Shown in pieces: positions 4,328 through 20,230 of a stretch of 20,332 bases of DNA (the stretch's first letter is position 1; every line of letters starts with the position of its first letter). Origin of the DNA: a virus. The stretch is taken from positions 1 to 20,332 of IMG/VR virus record IMGVR_UViG_3300031521_000400; one strand, written 5' to 3'. Below the pieces are notes generated by a model. It worked only from the letters and a program-made list of their open reading frames with translations, did not search any database and had not been told where the DNA came from. The translations under genes and the position numbers were made by a program.

Positions 4328-4737
4328 TAGAAGCAGATATAATTGGAATCCTACAAGGCAACTCAACCCTCACTACAGCTCTTGGGGGTATCAATAAGAT
4401 ATTCTATATTCAGGCAGGAACTACTGCAACTATGCCTTGGTTGCTTGTGGAAGTGGCCTCTGGAACTCCTCAGAAGATGGGGGCTAGTAGGCAGCAGGTT
4501 ACAGCTACAGCCCGACTCACACTTGCCATTGCACATACCAGTGCTGTCAAGGGTAGGCAGATAATGGAATACGCTAAGGACGCTTTACAGGGATTGCGCG
4601 GAGACGCTACAGAGAGCAAGGACTTGGAAGTCCGGTGTAGCGATGTGACTAGCTATGCAGGGGTTGGTTCTACAGATATATTTAACCTTACCTGCACCTG
4701 TAAGTTTATGGAAGACTGGGTTACACAACACGTTTAG
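4324..4737 (+). CDS. Tail terminator protein (DUF3168-like)
   Basis: The ATG overlaps the previous stop codon (ATGA at 4324-4327), so the two genes are translationally coupled. The 137-residue product has the tail-terminator pattern: a short N-terminal helix, IFYIQAGTTATMPWLLVEVAS with a central Pro, a stretch of beta strands (VTATARLTLAIAH), the helix GRQIMEYAKDALQGL and a final beta strand (FNLTCTCKF). Tail terminators form a hexamer that caps the tail tube at the correct length and docks to the neck. It is the last gene before the regulatory region 4738-4927. Confidence 0.7.
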   Translation: MIEADIIGILQGNSTLTTALGGINKIFYIQAGTTATMPWLLVEVASGTPQKMGASRQQVTATARLTLAIAHTSAVKGRQIMEYAKDALQGLRGDATESKDLEVRCSDVTSYAGVGSTDIFNLTCTCKFMEDWVTQHV

Positions 4738-4742
4738 TTCAT

Positions 4743-4764
4743 GTACCGGGAGTACCGGGAGTAC
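4743..4764 (+). repeat. Short tandem repeat, GTACCGGGA x 2.4
   Basis: Two perfect copies of GTACCGGGA and a partial third (GTAC) lie directly after the tail terminator gene. GTAC is itself a palindrome, so three palindromic centres are spaced by 9 bp. The role is unknown; it may be replication slippage or a small protein-binding site. Confidence 0.6.
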
Positions 4765-4777
4765 AAGGAATATTCAG

Positions 4778-4808
4778 AACCCGCTGTAATAGGTGGGTTT
4801 TTGCTTTG
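4778..4808 (+). terminator. Rho-independent terminator before the tail-tube promoter
   Basis: Arms AACCCGC (4778-4784) and GTGGGTT (4793-4799) pair over 7 bp with one G-U wobble around an 8-base loop, and the 3' arm runs into TTTTTGCTTT. It ends the head/neck transcript just before a strong promoter. Confidence 0.75.
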
Positions 4809-4820
4809 TTATGAGGGGTG

Positions 4821-4859
4821 TTGACAAAATCATACAGTAGTGTATCCTTTTGTATACAA
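4821..4859 (+). promoter_or_regulatory. Tail-tube promoter with palindromic operator-like site
   Basis: A perfect -35 TTGACA (4821-4826) is followed after 16 bp by TATCCT (4843-4848). A 20-bp inverted repeat GTGTAT-N8-ATACAA (4840-4859; five of six arm positions pair) covers the -10 and the expected start near 4855. The promoter upstream of the holin gene (19486-19524) has the same hexamers, spacing and inverted repeat, while the spacers differ. Conservation of only the functional parts supports both a real promoter and a shared regulator. A palindrome over the -10 is typical of a repressor operator, but an activator or anti-terminator site is not excluded. Confidence 0.75.
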
Positions 4860-4921
4860 TGCCAGTTTGGCACTTATACAAAGAGATGCCCTCCTATTTA
4901 TAGAGGGCCTAAAAATAGGAG
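4860..4921 (+). promoter_or_regulatory. Structured leader that can hide the tail-tube ribosome binding site
   Basis: Three pairings are visible: TGCCA/TGGCA (4860-4872, 3-base loop); a hairpin 4888-4908 with GCCCT/AGGGC, one bulged C, CTA/TAG and a TTTA loop; and a perfect 9-bp pairing of CTCCTATTT (4891-4899) with AAATAGGAG (4913-4921). The second and third share bases 4891-4899 and so exclude each other. The third covers the TAGGAG ribosome binding site of the tail-tube gene. Translation could be switched or timed by refolding. No known riboswitch class is recognised. Confidence 0.5.
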
Positions 4922-4927
4922 AAAACG

Positions 4928-5581
4928 ATGAGTTTGAATAGACTCGTAGGAAGTGATGGTGAGCTTTGGGGCTATACCTTTGGAACACCTCTCATTACAG
5001 GTTCAGCAACTGCTGGTGCTGAATATAAAATTGTAAAACTTGATGGGACTACAGTATTCCCTGCAGGCTACAAAGTTGGGGATTTGTGGACTTGTCCGAA
5101 AACCACTCCTCCAACATTTTCAGCAACTAATAGTGCTGCTCTTGCAACAGCTAAACTTGTTGGTGAGATCACCTCTTTTAAGTTTACCTTTTCTAAGGAT
5201 GCTGTTGAGGTTACTACTCTTGCTGATTTGGTCAAGGTATATCGTGCGGGAAAATCTGATGTAACAGGCACCATTGAAGGTATCACTTTTGTGGATGCCC
5301 TTGCTGATGGTTCCTCTCTTGCTAATCGTTTCATCCGTATTGTTAATATTGGTTCTACTGGTGACACCACTCTTAATACAGTAGATACATCTGACCTCTT
5401 TGTTAAATGCTATCTTCAGAAGGATGATTCCGATGGAGAAACTCAGATATGGCTTGCAGCGCAGGTCGAGCTTCTTGGATACGACTTCGGCGCTGCCACC
5501 TCTGATGCCCAGTCTTGGTCTTCTGACACTCGTATGTTGACCAGCCCGATCATCTTCACCAAAGTCACCCAGACGACCTAA
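4928..5581 (+). CDS. Major tail tube protein
   Basis: The 217-residue protein is called as the subunit that polymerises into the siphophage tail tube. It is rich in Thr, Val, Leu and small residues, predicted mostly beta, with ITSFKFTFSKDAVEVTTL (about 79-96), DVTGTIEGI (about 108-116) and a repeat-like C-terminus, all typical of tail tube proteins. The position after the tail terminator and before the chaperone/tape measure genes is diagnostic. TAGGAG lies 6 bases before the ATG. A dedicated promoter and leader precede the gene, matching the need for many copies. The first 80 residues include a VGDLWTCPKTTPPTFSATNS segment that may be an inserted loop or a virion-surface region. Confidence 0.75.
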   Translation: MSLNRLVGSDGELWGYTFGTPLITGSATAGAEYKIVKLDGTTVFPAGYKVGDLWTCPKTTPPTFSATNSAALATAKLVGEITSFKFTFSKDAVEVTTLADLVKVYRAGKSDVTGTIEGITFVDALADGSSLANRFIRIVNIGSTGDTTLNTVDTSDLFVKCYLQKDDSDGETQIWLAAQVELLGYDFGAATSDAQSWSSDTRMLTSPIIFTKVTQTT

Positions 5582-16085: not shown

Positions 16086-16484
16086 ATGCCTGAATTATGT
16101 GAAGATTGCCACGAGATAAAAAAATTAGAATTTCAATTATGTAAGACAAATCTTGACGTTAAAGAAGCTAGTATTATACAAACTAATAAGGATATTGAGC
16201 ATGAGTCTATGATACAAAATTTAGGCAACAGGATGAATACTATGTCACAAGATTTCATAGACTTTAAGAAAGAGATGAAAGATGATATACAATCTATAAA
16301 GAACGAAATACCAGATATGTTTGATAATGCTATTAATAAACTTATGGCTAGAATACTGAAAACAGTATCAATAGGAGTTCTTATAGTAATATGTGTTGTC
16401 ATTTTGGCATTTTCTCGTCCCATTATTCTTAGAGGAATAGATGAACTTAGACATTGCGTAGAAACTGTGGAGGTAACTAAATGA
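16086..16484 (+). CDS. Coiled-coil membrane protein, XhlA/holin-accessory-like
   Basis: The 132-residue protein starts after AAAGGAG. It opens with CEDCHE (a CxxC pair), continues with a long charged helix with heptad spacing (about residues 10-80, including NLGNRMNTMSQDFIDFKKEM) and has one clear membrane segment at about 92-108 (TVSIGVLIVICVVILAF). A short C-terminal tail (SRPIILRGIDELRHCVE) follows. This layout resembles XhlA-type haemolysin/holin accessory proteins, which sit next to lysis enzymes, as here. It overlaps the next gene by ATGA (16481-16484), so the two are translationally coupled. The family is not certain; a spanin or tail-associated membrane protein is possible. The CxxC may bind metal or form a disulfide. 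Confidence 0.55.
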   Translation: MPELCEDCHEIKKLEFQLCKTNLDVKEASIIQTNKDIEHESMIQNLGNRMNTMSQDFIDFKKEMKDDIQSIKNEIPDMFDNAINKLMARILKTVSIGVLIVICVVILAFSRPIILRGIDELRHCVETVEVTK

Positions 16485-16945
16485 CGCGAACTGTAACAGC
16501 GGATCTGGCTAAAGGTATTCTACATATGTTCGATAGAGAAATCCCTATAGCATGTATAGTACGAAATGAAGTAAACGGGTGGAGAAAATCAGATCAAGTA
16601 GTATATTCCATACCTGATAATAAACCTATTCAGCCTAGACAATTCCCGAAAGGAATTTGGTCGGTGGGTAAACCAGATACAAGAACTGACCCCTATCTTG
16701 CACCGTATTTTACCCCTACCTCGGCGTGGCAATATTTGCCCATCTGGGAACTAGATGAAAATAAATGCTATAAAAAAGCCACTGCTAATATGACTAAGGA
16801 TAAAGGATATGGATTACATTTTTCTACAAGTACCTCTACTCAAGGATGTATAAAATTACTAAATAAGGATGATCTATTGTGGTTTGTGACACAACTTAAA
16901 AATTATCAAGCACAAGGCGATGTTATTATGATAGAAGTTGTATAA
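16481..16945 (+). CDS. L,D-transpeptidase-like (YkuD/DUF5675-style) protein
   Basis: The 154-residue protein has GLHFSTSTSTQGCIKL at about 111-126: His113 and Cys123 in a His...Gly-Cys-Ile arrangement like the catalytic pair of L,D-transpeptidase-fold enzymes. FPKGIWSVGKPDT (about 55-67) matches the Pro-x-Gly-x-[WY] strand that precedes the active site in these folds. The spacing between His and Cys (10 residues) is shorter than in most YkuD enzymes, closer to DUF5675-like phage proteins. It may cut or modify peptidoglycan stem peptides during lysis, but activity is inferred. No signal peptide is seen, so it would need a holin or a tail route to reach the wall. ATGA coupling ties it to the membrane protein upstream. 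Confidence 0.55.
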   Translation: MTRTVTADLAKGILHMFDREIPIACIVRNEVNGWRKSDQVVYSIPDNKPIQPRQFPKGIWSVGKPDTRTDPYLAPYFTPTSAWQYLPIWELDENKCYKKATANMTKDKGYGLHFSTSTSTQGCIKLLNKDDLLWFVTQLKNYQAQGDVIMIEVV

Positions 16946-17010: not shown

Positions 17011-17541
17011 ATGTTACAGATTAAAATTGTTAGAAAAGCTATATCGCATCATTATAAACGAGATCCATCAGTACAAGCTGATTGGCACAATAATGATGCT
17101 AATAATTCCCTAGATACATTTCAGGTATTAAAAGATAATTTGCCTATTGCTATTTTTAATGCACAGACCGTTTCAAATCTTGAAGGATTAGACGAAGGTG
17201 TAAAGTATACCAGTACCATTGCGCCCGGAAAATTCTATATTCGAGCATTTGTTCCGGGAAGGCAACATTATGGAAGGATCCATGAAATTGTTTCTGCTAT
17301 CACATTAGCTGGTGATAAAATTAATGGTTACTCTATTACAAATAAGGATCCAGCACGGTGGCTTGTTCATGATTGGGAAAAACTAAATTCAACCAGTCCT
17401 GCAGGAGTTGATACTCGCGTCGCATGGTCTGCTGGATGTATTGTCATTAAGGATGCTGATTTAGTTGCACTAGGTAAACTATTTGACGACAATGGTGTAA
17501 AACAAGGGGATCTTGTTCCTACTGAGTTAGTTGAAATATAA
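17011..17541 (+). CDS. Second L,D-transpeptidase-fold-like (DUF5675-like) protein
   Basis: The 176-residue protein starts with ATG at 17011 after ATAGGAGATACC. The motif WLVHDWEKL (His120) followed after about 20 residues by VAWSAGCIVIKDADLVALG (Cys143) is the H...SxGC[IV] signature of L,D-transpeptidase-fold and DUF5675-like proteins. APGKFYIRAFVPG (about 71-83) corresponds to the Pro-x-Gly-x-[YW] strand. It is not a recent copy of the upstream gene; the two share fold signatures only. No signal peptide or membrane segment. A cell-wall role in lysis is likely from context but unproven. It lies between the two copies of the 72-bp cassette, together with the lipase-like gene. Confidence 0.55.
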   Translation: MLQIKIVRKAISHHYKRDPSVQADWHNNDANNSLDTFQVLKDNLPIAIFNAQTVSNLEGLDEGVKYTSTIAPGKFYIRAFVPGRQHYGRIHEIVSAITLAGDKINGYSITNKDPARWLVHDWEKLNSTSPAGVDTRVAWSAGCIVIKDADLVALGKLFDDNGVKQGDLVPTELVEI

Positions 17542-17558: not shown

Positions 17559-18146
17559 ATGTTAGCGGAAAAGTATAAGATAGTTACAGGTGAAGGCTGG
17601 GTAACAGGAGGACTTAATGTACAGTATAAAGTTGTAGATGGAGTTCTTTATTTTCAATGCACTCATGGTGTGTCAGATTGGTTCTTTAATCTTTTTGCTG
17701 CAAAAGTCACATATGATGAGCATGGTATTACTGTTATTGCACATGCTGGATTTGCTGCCCTTTGGTTATCTATAAGGTCTGATATAGAAAAACTTTCTTA
17801 TTCAGAAATAGATGGGTATTCAGAAGGTTCTGCATTAGCTGCAGCAGCACATCTGAATTATGTAGCAAGAATGGGTAAGGAGCCAAATTCCTATGCCTTT
17901 GCTACCCCACGTTATTTTGATAGGAAAACGGCAAAATCATTAGGTAAATGGTTTACACAATTTCATAGAATCAATAATAAATGGGATATAGTAAAACATG
18001 TTCCGTTTGCTGGTTGGTATTTTAGACATATTGGAAAGGAGACTTTAACTACTGGTAAAGCTAAAAGGCCAATTGGATGCAGTCTCTTACGTTGGTTATC
18101 TGGTCATTCTCCTGAGGAATATATGCAGACATTGGCAAAAATGTGA
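17559..18146 (+). CDS. Lipase class 3-like alpha/beta hydrolase
   Basis: The start is the ATG at 17559, 8 bases after AGGAGG; the earlier ATG at 17555 stops after seven codons. The 195-residue product has the nucleophile elbow GYSEGSALA (Ser88 in GxSxG), preceded by AHAGFAALW, like the HxGF motif of lipase-3 proteins. RINNKWDIVKHVPF (Asp143) corresponds to the acid-residue loop, and GHSPEEY (His183) to the final His, so a Ser88-Asp143-His183 triad is plausible. This is short for the family. No signal peptide. Substrate unknown: host membrane lipid, outer-membrane glycolipid or an ester-linked wall polymer. Mycobacteriophage lysin B is also an alpha/beta hydrolase in a lysis cassette, but nothing here indicates mycolic acids. 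Confidence 0.7.
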   Translation: MLAEKYKIVTGEGWVTGGLNVQYKVVDGVLYFQCTHGVSDWFFNLFAAKVTYDEHGITVIAHAGFAALWLSIRSDIEKLSYSEIDGYSEGSALAAAAHLNYVARMGKEPNSYAFATPRYFDRKTAKSLGKWFTQFHRINNKWDIVKHVPFAGWYFRHIGKETLTTGKAKRPIGCSLLRWLSGHSPEEYMQTLAKM

Positions 18147-19535: not shown

Positions 19536-19805
19536 ATGTTCGACTTATTTTCTTGTGTTGCTCTCTGGATAGCCGGTGCACTTATAGTCGCCGGACTCAC
19601 CCAATGGATCAAATCCTTCATTAAACTCAAATCCCCCCATAAATGGATCTACGGTATTATTTCCGCTGGATTGTCTTTTGCGGCTGCCTATGCTGGTGGA
19701 GGCACTGTTATCCTGTGGAACTTCCTTGGTATCCTTGCTGTCTCTCAGCTTGGTTATGAAAGCATTATGCAGAAGTTCCTGTTCAAGAAAACAGAGGAAA
19801 AATAG
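19536..19805 (+). CDS. Holin-like small membrane protein
   Basis: The 89-residue protein starts with ATG after TTGGAGG. Three hydrophobic segments are visible: about residues 8-21 (ALWIAGALIVAGLT), 38-53 (IYGIISAGLSFAAAYA) and 57-70 (VILWNFLGILAVSQ). A basic loop (KSFIKLKSPHK) lies between the first two and a Lys-rich tail (KFLFKKTEEK) ends it. Size, segment number and charged tail fit a holin, which forms membrane lesions at the end of the cycle and lets lysis enzymes out. The next two spanin-like frames, starting at its stop codon, support a lysis cassette. Many holins share no sequence similarity, so this is a topology and context call. Confidence 0.65.
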   Translation: MFDLFSCVALWIAGALIVAGLTQWIKSFIKLKSPHKWIYGIISAGLSFAAAYAGGGTVILWNFLGILAVSQLGYESIMQKFLFKKTEEK

Positions 19806-20230
19806 TGTGCAAAAAATACTTATGTATCTTGGCGGTTCTCTGTTTACCATTACTCTGCTATTCGGAGGAGGATTCCTCACAGGTCGTCTTACAGCAATTA
19901 AACAGCCAAGCCAAACTAGCACAGAATATAGTGGTGAGATTAGTCGAATCGTTGAACTTACGCGAAGCTACCTTGCTGAAAGATCAGGAGAACTTAAACA
20001 GCGAGAAGACCTCATTGCAGCAAGAGAAGCTAGAGTTTCAGACAGAGAAAAACTCCTTCGAGAAGCAGAAGACAGAGCAAAGTCAGACCGAACAGACCTT
20101 ACTGAACTTGAACAAATCGTATCAAACATTGTTAACCTCTCAGAAACGAAATGAGAAAATAATGTGGTGTCTGGGGGGTGTTAGCGTAGTAAGTATAGCA
20201 ACTACTGTCTTAGTTGCATTAATAAAATAA
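19805..20230 (+). CDS. Secreted coiled-coil protein with C-terminal membrane segment (u-spanin-like)
   Basis: It starts with GTG at 19805, sharing its G with the holin-like stop (TAGTG), 6 bases after AGAGGA. The 141-residue product begins with a signal-like sequence (KKYLCILAVLCLPLLCYSEE); Cys18 could be a lipoprotein cysteine if the host accepts a loose lipobox, otherwise cleavage after CYS is plausible. Residues about 25-115 form a Gln/Glu/Lys-rich coiled coil, and residues 119-139 are a membrane segment (IMWCLGGVSVVSIATTVLVA). Outer-membrane lipid anchor, periplasmic coil and C-terminal inner-membrane anchor is the layout of unimolecular spanins such as T1 gp11. It extends past the overlapping frame to the ribosome binding site of the next gene, which favours it as a real gene. 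Function is inferred. Confidence 0.65.
   Translation: MCKKYLCILAVLCLPLLCYSEEDSSQVVLQQLNSQAKLAQNIVVRLVESLNLREATLLKDQENLNSEKTSLQQEKLEFQTEKNSFEKQKTEQSQTEQTLLNLNKSYQTLLTSQKRNEKIMWCLGGVSVVSIATTVLVALIK
19807..20154 (+). CDS. Rz-like inner-membrane spanin candidate, overlapping frame
   Basis: A second frame starts two bases after the previous one, on the GTG at 19807 within GTGTG (ATG at 19822 is an alternative), 8 bases after AGAGGA. The 115-residue product has a single N-terminal membrane segment (about 6-28, YLGGSLFTITLLFGGGFLTG) followed by a long charged coiled coil (about 43-105, including RSGELKQREDLIAAREARV). This is the standard layout of lambda Rz-type i-spanins. It lies wholly within the longer frame at 19805-20230, which is in the +1 register relative to it, as Rz1 is to Rz. 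Codon choice looks natural in both frames. Possible reading: a two-component spanin pair encoded in overlapping frames. It could instead be a shadow of the other frame. Confidence 0.55.
   Translation: MQKILMYLGGSLFTITLLFGGGFLTGRLTAIKQPSQTSTEYSGEISRIVELTRSYLAERSGELKQREDLIAAREARVSDREKLLREAEDRAKSDRTDLTELEQIVSNIVNLSETK

Follow-up and report, generated by a model that had tools for sequence, protein, structure and literature searches.

Two predicted membrane-anchored coiled-coil proteins encoded in overlapping frames from one double start in an uncultured phage

The locus described here raises the question of whether two long reading frames that set out from a single GTGTG, directly behind a holin-like gene, both encode proteins, and whether such proteins would do the work of a phage spanin. 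It was found in the uncultured phage IMGVR_UViG_3300031521_000400 of IMG/VR, and the whole stretch of DNA analysed, 20,332 bases in length, is called the window. The original prediction described frames starting at 19805 and 19807, and both are present at exactly these positions. The features of the locus are as follows.

19536..19805, plus strand: holin-like ORF P0003, 89 aa, hydrophobic, stop codon TAG at 19803-19805
19793..19798, plus strand: SD-like AGAGGA, common to both starts, identical in the relative L004
19805..19809, plus strand: double start GTGTG, with GTG for B at 19805 and GTG for A at 19807
19805..20230, plus strand: frame B, GTG start at 19805, TAA end at 20230, 141 aa, omega 0.28
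19807..20154, plus strand: frame A, GTG start at 19807, TGA end at 20154, 115 aa, omega 0.48
19933..20142, plus strand: 21-base-periodic region with heptad repeats in both frames
20155..20230, plus strand: B-only tail coding for the C-terminal membrane segment of B, a single-coding internal control

The two starts are 2 bases apart, and A and B overlap over 348 bases across which the third reading frame has many stops. As the original prediction had it, B occupies the +1 frame relative to A, which is the register of Rz1 in Rz, runs 76 nt beyond the end of A, and is preceded, like A, by the single AGAGGA at spacings of 6 and 8 nt for the two starts. The stop codon of the holin-like P0003, for which no family match was obtained, overlaps the start of B by one base.

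Two independent relatives were available for comparison, IMGVR_UViG_3300048599_000097 (78.5 kb; L004) and IMGVR_UViG_3300004151_000025 (32.4 kb; L012), the latter found through its neighbouring metallophosphoesterase gene, which is 55% identical. With the window they bring the known distinct versions of the locus to three. A further contig, IMGVR_UViG_3300028767_000073, was identical to the window over the last 3,528 comparable bases and was therefore not counted as independent evidence. A and B of L004 are 77% and 79% identical to those of the window, A and B of L012 are 39% and 35% identical, and both frames are open in both relatives. The holin-like P0003 is 93% identical in L004. In L012 its place is taken by an unrelated hydrophobic ORF of 73 aa (5202-5423) with A/B retained, and the stop of this ORF overlaps the start of B by one base (TAATG) as in the window. 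Neither a megablast search with the window nor tblastn searches with A, B, the holin-like protein and the A protein of L012 matched any phage record. Scans of viral contigs returned A/B only in the near-identical contig and the two independent relatives, and a profile search of 80 metallophosphoesterase loci revealed no additional pair. No homologue of A was found in 393 genomes of the phylum to which the Spirochaetaceae MAG behind L093 belongs, a search that carries little weight since it had no positive control, and the matches to A and B included no relative with known function.

In the recoding null, one protein was held fixed, its codons were drawn at random from genome usage and the other frame was then scored. 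With B recoded, A was open in 0, 1 and 0 of 20,000 trials for the window, L004 and L012, and recoding of A left B open equally rarely (0, 1 and 0 of 20,000, in the same order). Since recoding almost never leaves the other frame open, the openness of both is more than chance. The true similarity to the distant relative exceeded the recoding null in every combination tested (z 9.7-14.6), with z of 9.7-11.4 for A given B. Between the window and L004, dS inside the overlap was 0.21 (frame A) and 0.39 (frame B), compared with 1.31, 0.73 and 1.62 in the metallophosphoesterase gene, the holin-like gene and the B tail, respectively, a collapse that is confined to the A/B overlap. The single-coding tail of B has an omega of 0.11. 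A dual-frame site model with separate omegas returned the values listed above for A (p = 2.7e-5) and B (p = 2.9e-15) in likelihood ratio tests against 1. The corresponding values were p = 0.004 and 8e-7 for the overlap plus B tail without the outside genes, and p = 0.16 and 0.001 for the overlap alone, the test for frame A being significant only with a neutral rate taken from flanking genes or the B tail. The original prediction had named stops or frameshifts in relatives, or purifying selection in only one frame, as evidence against it; the relatives carry no stops or frameshifts and both frames are under purifying selection. The relatives, the selection analysis and the recoding nulls strongly support the view, at first put forward as an inference, that both frames are real genes. 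A and B would thus be classed as a same-strand dual-coding (overprinted) pair, and it is nearly certain that both are functional proteins. For a set of three sequences, the case for dual coding is about as strong as comparison of sequences allows.

The reading that only B is a gene, with A open by chance in purine-rich heptad-coding DNA, draws on the greater length and stronger constraint of B, on its own conserved tail and on the overlap-only test for A, but it is scarcely credible in view of the closure of A when B is recoded, the similarity of A to the distant relative beyond what conservation of B forces, the synonymous rate of B in the overlap compared with its tail, the conserved GTG start of A and a codon usage that is normal for the genome in A and not in B. 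Synonymous codon usage of frame A is ordinary for the genome in the three phages (z about -1), whereas that of frame B is atypical inside the overlap (z -5.7, -4.6 and -3.3); the tail of B is not atypical (z 0.4, 2.6 and -0.9). By the usual overprinting argument, this codon usage suggests that B was overprinted on an older frame A.

The coil region carries both proteins on one repeat. Lags of 21, 42 and 63 are among the strongest there in all three sequences, and heptad periodicity by the 7 + 3.5 measure gave p = 0.0002 for A and p = 0.001-0.005 for B. One heptad position is hydrophobic in A and B alike (8 of 8, 8 of 8 and 9 of 9 repeats in the three sequences) because A mostly has NTT there, which is read as TTN by B. 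At the neighbouring position the hydrophobic codons of A mostly end in a base other than T, and in the window and L004 none of the residues of B there is hydrophobic. The alignment with L012 contains a coil indel of 21 bases (3 + 18), equal to one heptad per frame, which keeps both frames and both heptad registers. A 21-base period that is a heptad in both frames is a way for two coiled coils to share the same DNA.

The start motif is GTGTG in the window and L004 and ATGTG in L012. Since the last base of the start codon of B is the first base of that of A, the start of A must be GTG, and since the starts are 2 bases apart the second codon of B must begin with TG; it is TGC (Cys) in all three sequences, so that by this forced overlap the conserved Met-Cys of B marks the start of A. 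The aligned spacing (DtoStart) for B/A in the window and L004 is 12/14 with the core AGGA and 15/17 with the core GAGG, and possible SD cores in L012 lie at 9/11, 12/14, 13/15 and 16/18. In E. coli, both codons of GUGUG are used at DtoStart 12/14 to 14/16 in vitro and in vivo, and dual use of AUGUG is clear at 12/14 (Kohl et al., PMC9841429). The locus thus has the marks of ambiguous initiation, two starts in NTGTG at a permissive SD spacing, and by analogy with E. coli dual initiation may also occur in this phage's host. The upstream stop overlapping the start may in addition permit reinitiation. Co-initiation of A and B at the double start is considered very probable.

The N-terminal hydrophobic stretch of A is weak in the window (Kyte-Doolittle <1.6) and scores 1.76 and 2.03 in the relatives. 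With the helical coil that follows, A has the i-spanin layout ascribed to it by the original prediction, an agreement in layout only. In B both termini carry a hydrophobic segment, the C-terminal one strongly so. AlphaFold2 predicted long helices for residues 23-140 of B and 38-114 of A; the alignments, of 3 sequences, are shallow, so that little beyond helix can be read from the models. Judged from the layout, A would be N-in/C-out and B N-out/C-in (type I). The locus is a complete overlap of two predicted membrane-anchored coiled-coil proteins with opposite predicted topology.

The N-terminus of B resembles a signal peptide. In the window and L004 the sequence LPLLC stands before the putative cleavage site, with Leu at -1, and the B protein of L012 has no cysteine at the end of the signal, which is a plain SPase I-type signal (..VVLSA, followed by QD after the cleavage point). 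With LPLLC as the only candidate and, decisively, no cysteine in L012, the sequence of B is not that of a lipoprotein. Since o- and u-spanins are defined by the lipobox (Kongari et al., PMC6139136), B is by definition neither, and membership in a spanin family is not claimed. The u-spanin label first given to B is thus not upheld, B being moreover predicted all-helical whereas known u-spanins are described as beta-rich (PMC6139136), and the idea of an overlap between a two-component and a one-component spanin falls with it, for lack of the lipobox. That B is all the same a true u-spanin with LPLLC as an unusual lipobox is very improbable: its signal, coil and C-terminal membrane segment agree with this, and the non-canonical lipobox AWAC is functional elsewhere (PMC6139136), but Leu at -1 is not in the published consensus, L012 lacks the cysteine, the predicted fold is helical, and two other ORFs in these phages have clean lipoboxes (LTGC and LSGC). 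These short lipoprotein-like ORFs lie elsewhere, at L099 3481-3948 and at L112 10519 on the minus strand, and show that the lack at B does not stem from an inability of the phages to encode a lipobox. The ORF of L099 is upstream of the terminase gene and gave a weak transglutaminase-like match.

Scanning the window and three contigs for lipoboxes revealed no lipoprotein ORF near A/B. Neither A nor B has a periplasmic cysteine, a residue present in 507 of 528 known two-component spanin pairs; A has no cysteine (that of L012 has one, in the membrane segment) and those of B are in the signal or membrane segment. No spanin family of Pfam, PHROGs or NCBIfam matched A or B, a result that weighs little for A since spanin families are very diverse. 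Matches of B to FlbB and SH3_and_anchor were far below the cut-off and typical of coiled coils. A spanin-like action of the pair is possible; inner-membrane proteins of type I topology, although outside the survey criteria, could serve as i-spanins (PMC6139136).

Along the window the tail genes are followed by an XhlA-like gene, two YkuD-like genes, a class 3 lipase, a metallophosphoesterase, the holin-like gene and A/B. The XhlA-like coil-plus-membrane protein (16086-16484) was assigned by layout only; the lipase was identified with an E value of 8.7e-10 and the metallophosphoesterase with phrog_284 (E 5.5e-49). Lipase and metallophosphoesterase are also upstream of A/B in both relatives, with a DUF261 gene between them, and in all three phages A/B is located among the late genes, immediately behind a gene for a holin-like or small membrane protein. 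The class 3 lipase of this late cluster (17559-18146 in the window, 337-927 in L004 and 2777-3442 in L012; PF01764 in the window and L012) is possibly a membrane-acting enzyme at lysis. The YkuD-like ORFs (16481-16945 and 17011-17541) lie side by side and bear a weak resemblance to L,D-transpeptidases; neither was seen in the matching part of L004 or L012. For the second, phrog_26752 was matched at 1e-34, and Tetrasphaera phage TJE1 was the sole match in phage records. The product of ORF 1518-2534, which immediately follows the major capsid gene, by eye resembles a GIY-YIG homing endonuclease, and since the relative L099 is without this ORF there, it is probably an insertion. L099 also encodes, at 4444-4914, a transglycosylase (SLT, 2e-12) whose signal-like N-terminus ends in ..VFSD and which is a candidate for an exported endolysin. 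The DUF261 gene (L004 924-1376; L012 3436-3888) is absent from the window. DUF261 was over the cut-off in 6 of 198 genomes from the phylum of L093's genome and in 0 of 14 control genomes, and its presence in the two relatives is a weak hint of a spirochaete host. The best phage matches of the terminase, about 31% identical, are to Enterococcus and Lactococcus phages and some Leptospira phages.

It is proposed that one gene region would give rise to two proteins, with ribosomes starting at either of two codons 2 bases apart. Ribosomes would be directed to GTGTG or ATGTG by the SD sequence, and probably some would also reinitiate there after terminating on the holin-like gene. A would be anchored in the inner membrane by its N-terminus and extend a coiled coil into the periplasm; B would be exported, its coiled coil also lying in the periplasm and being tethered to the inner membrane by a C-terminal anchor in type I topology. 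The two coils may pair, antiparallel if both anchors are in the inner membrane, and the pair may act at the last step of lysis in place of Rz/Rz1. From comparison of the three sequences, both frames are evidently held by selection, with the double start and both predicted layouts conserved, and this selection lends indirect support to the view that A and B are probably both translated in infection.

Two other roles were considered for a pair that is made. Small membrane proteins of phages with a role in superinfection exclusion exist, and A and B could act on the cell envelope outside lysis in such a manner. Exclusion activity has been described for one pair of overlapping phage genes (PMC9936078), but that pair belongs to a lysogeny control region and has starts 25 nt apart, and A/B is in a late-gene position between tail and holin genes, which leaves this role unlikely. 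Only marginally better placed, and still improbable, is a role of both proteins in regulating holin timing, as antiholin-like or lysis-inhibition partners, with no disruption of the outer membrane. This is consistent with the position of A/B directly downstream of, and in one-base overlap with, the holin-like or small membrane gene of each phage, with the prediction of both anchors in the inner membrane and with a locus that has no lipoprotein partner, but the replacement of the holin-like gene in L012 indicates that A/B is not tied to one holin. Antiholins are not known to need long periplasmic coils, which also counts against a role in timing.

A co-initiated, dual-coded pair of inner-membrane coiled-coil proteins acting in lysis is the preferred reading, to which we assign a probability of about 0.5. 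A lysis role of any kind for A/B is an evenly balanced prospect, the absence of an outer-membrane anchor in B being a point against it, as it leaves the pair no evident means of disrupting an outer membrane. More tentative is the proposal of a new type of lysis complex, a mirror-image coiled-coil pair, both members in the inner membrane and neither a lipoprotein, encoded in register on a 21-base heptad repeat with amounts linked by one NTGTG start. If this proposal is true, the locus would be the first natural NTGTG site making two long functional proteins, as far as the literature found shows. Dual initiation at AUGUG and GUGUG was shown biochemically in 2022, and the alternative products described in E. 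coli are short peptides of unknown function. What is new at the A/B locus is that two long proteins would be co-initiated from NTGTG, and that their heptad registers coincide. It supplies evolutionary evidence that such a start can be used for two long proteins at once, and offers a test case found in nature. If the pair replaces Rz/Rz1, it would answer the survey's open question on non-lipoprotein topologies doing the work of spanins (PMC6139136).

The closest parallels are found among spanins and ambiguous start sites. Like the embedded lambda Rz/Rz1 (PMC6139136), A/B comprises two envelope proteins in overlapping frames with the same +1 register; A shares the i-spanin layout and the pair adjoins a holin-like gene. 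In about 70% of known embedded cases the o-spanin begins at 0.4-0.5 of the length of the i-spanin, whereas A and B start together and B outlasts A; B is moreover a non-lipoprotein with a C-terminal membrane segment, and the pair is without a periplasmic cysteine. B resembles the unimolecular spanins of the T1 gp11 type in its signal, periplasmic domain, C-terminal membrane segment and lack of a periplasmic cysteine, but differs in having no lipobox, in being helical and not beta-rich, and in being co-encoded with a second protein. The AUGUG/GUGUG sites of E. coli (pqiA, tamA and narQ; PMC9841429) have the same start motif, and one of the window's two SD spacings (12/14) is inside the range of dual initiation found for them; the alternative products of pqiA and tamA are peptides of 15 and 10 residues, in contrast to A and B, both >110 aa and under purifying selection. 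The rnpA-rpmH site of Thermus, said to be the sole ambiguous start site reported from bacteria until 2022 (PMC9841429), has the starts AUGGAUG and not NTGTG, and its proteins are unrelated, but like A/B it uses one initiation site for two proteins in overlapping frames.
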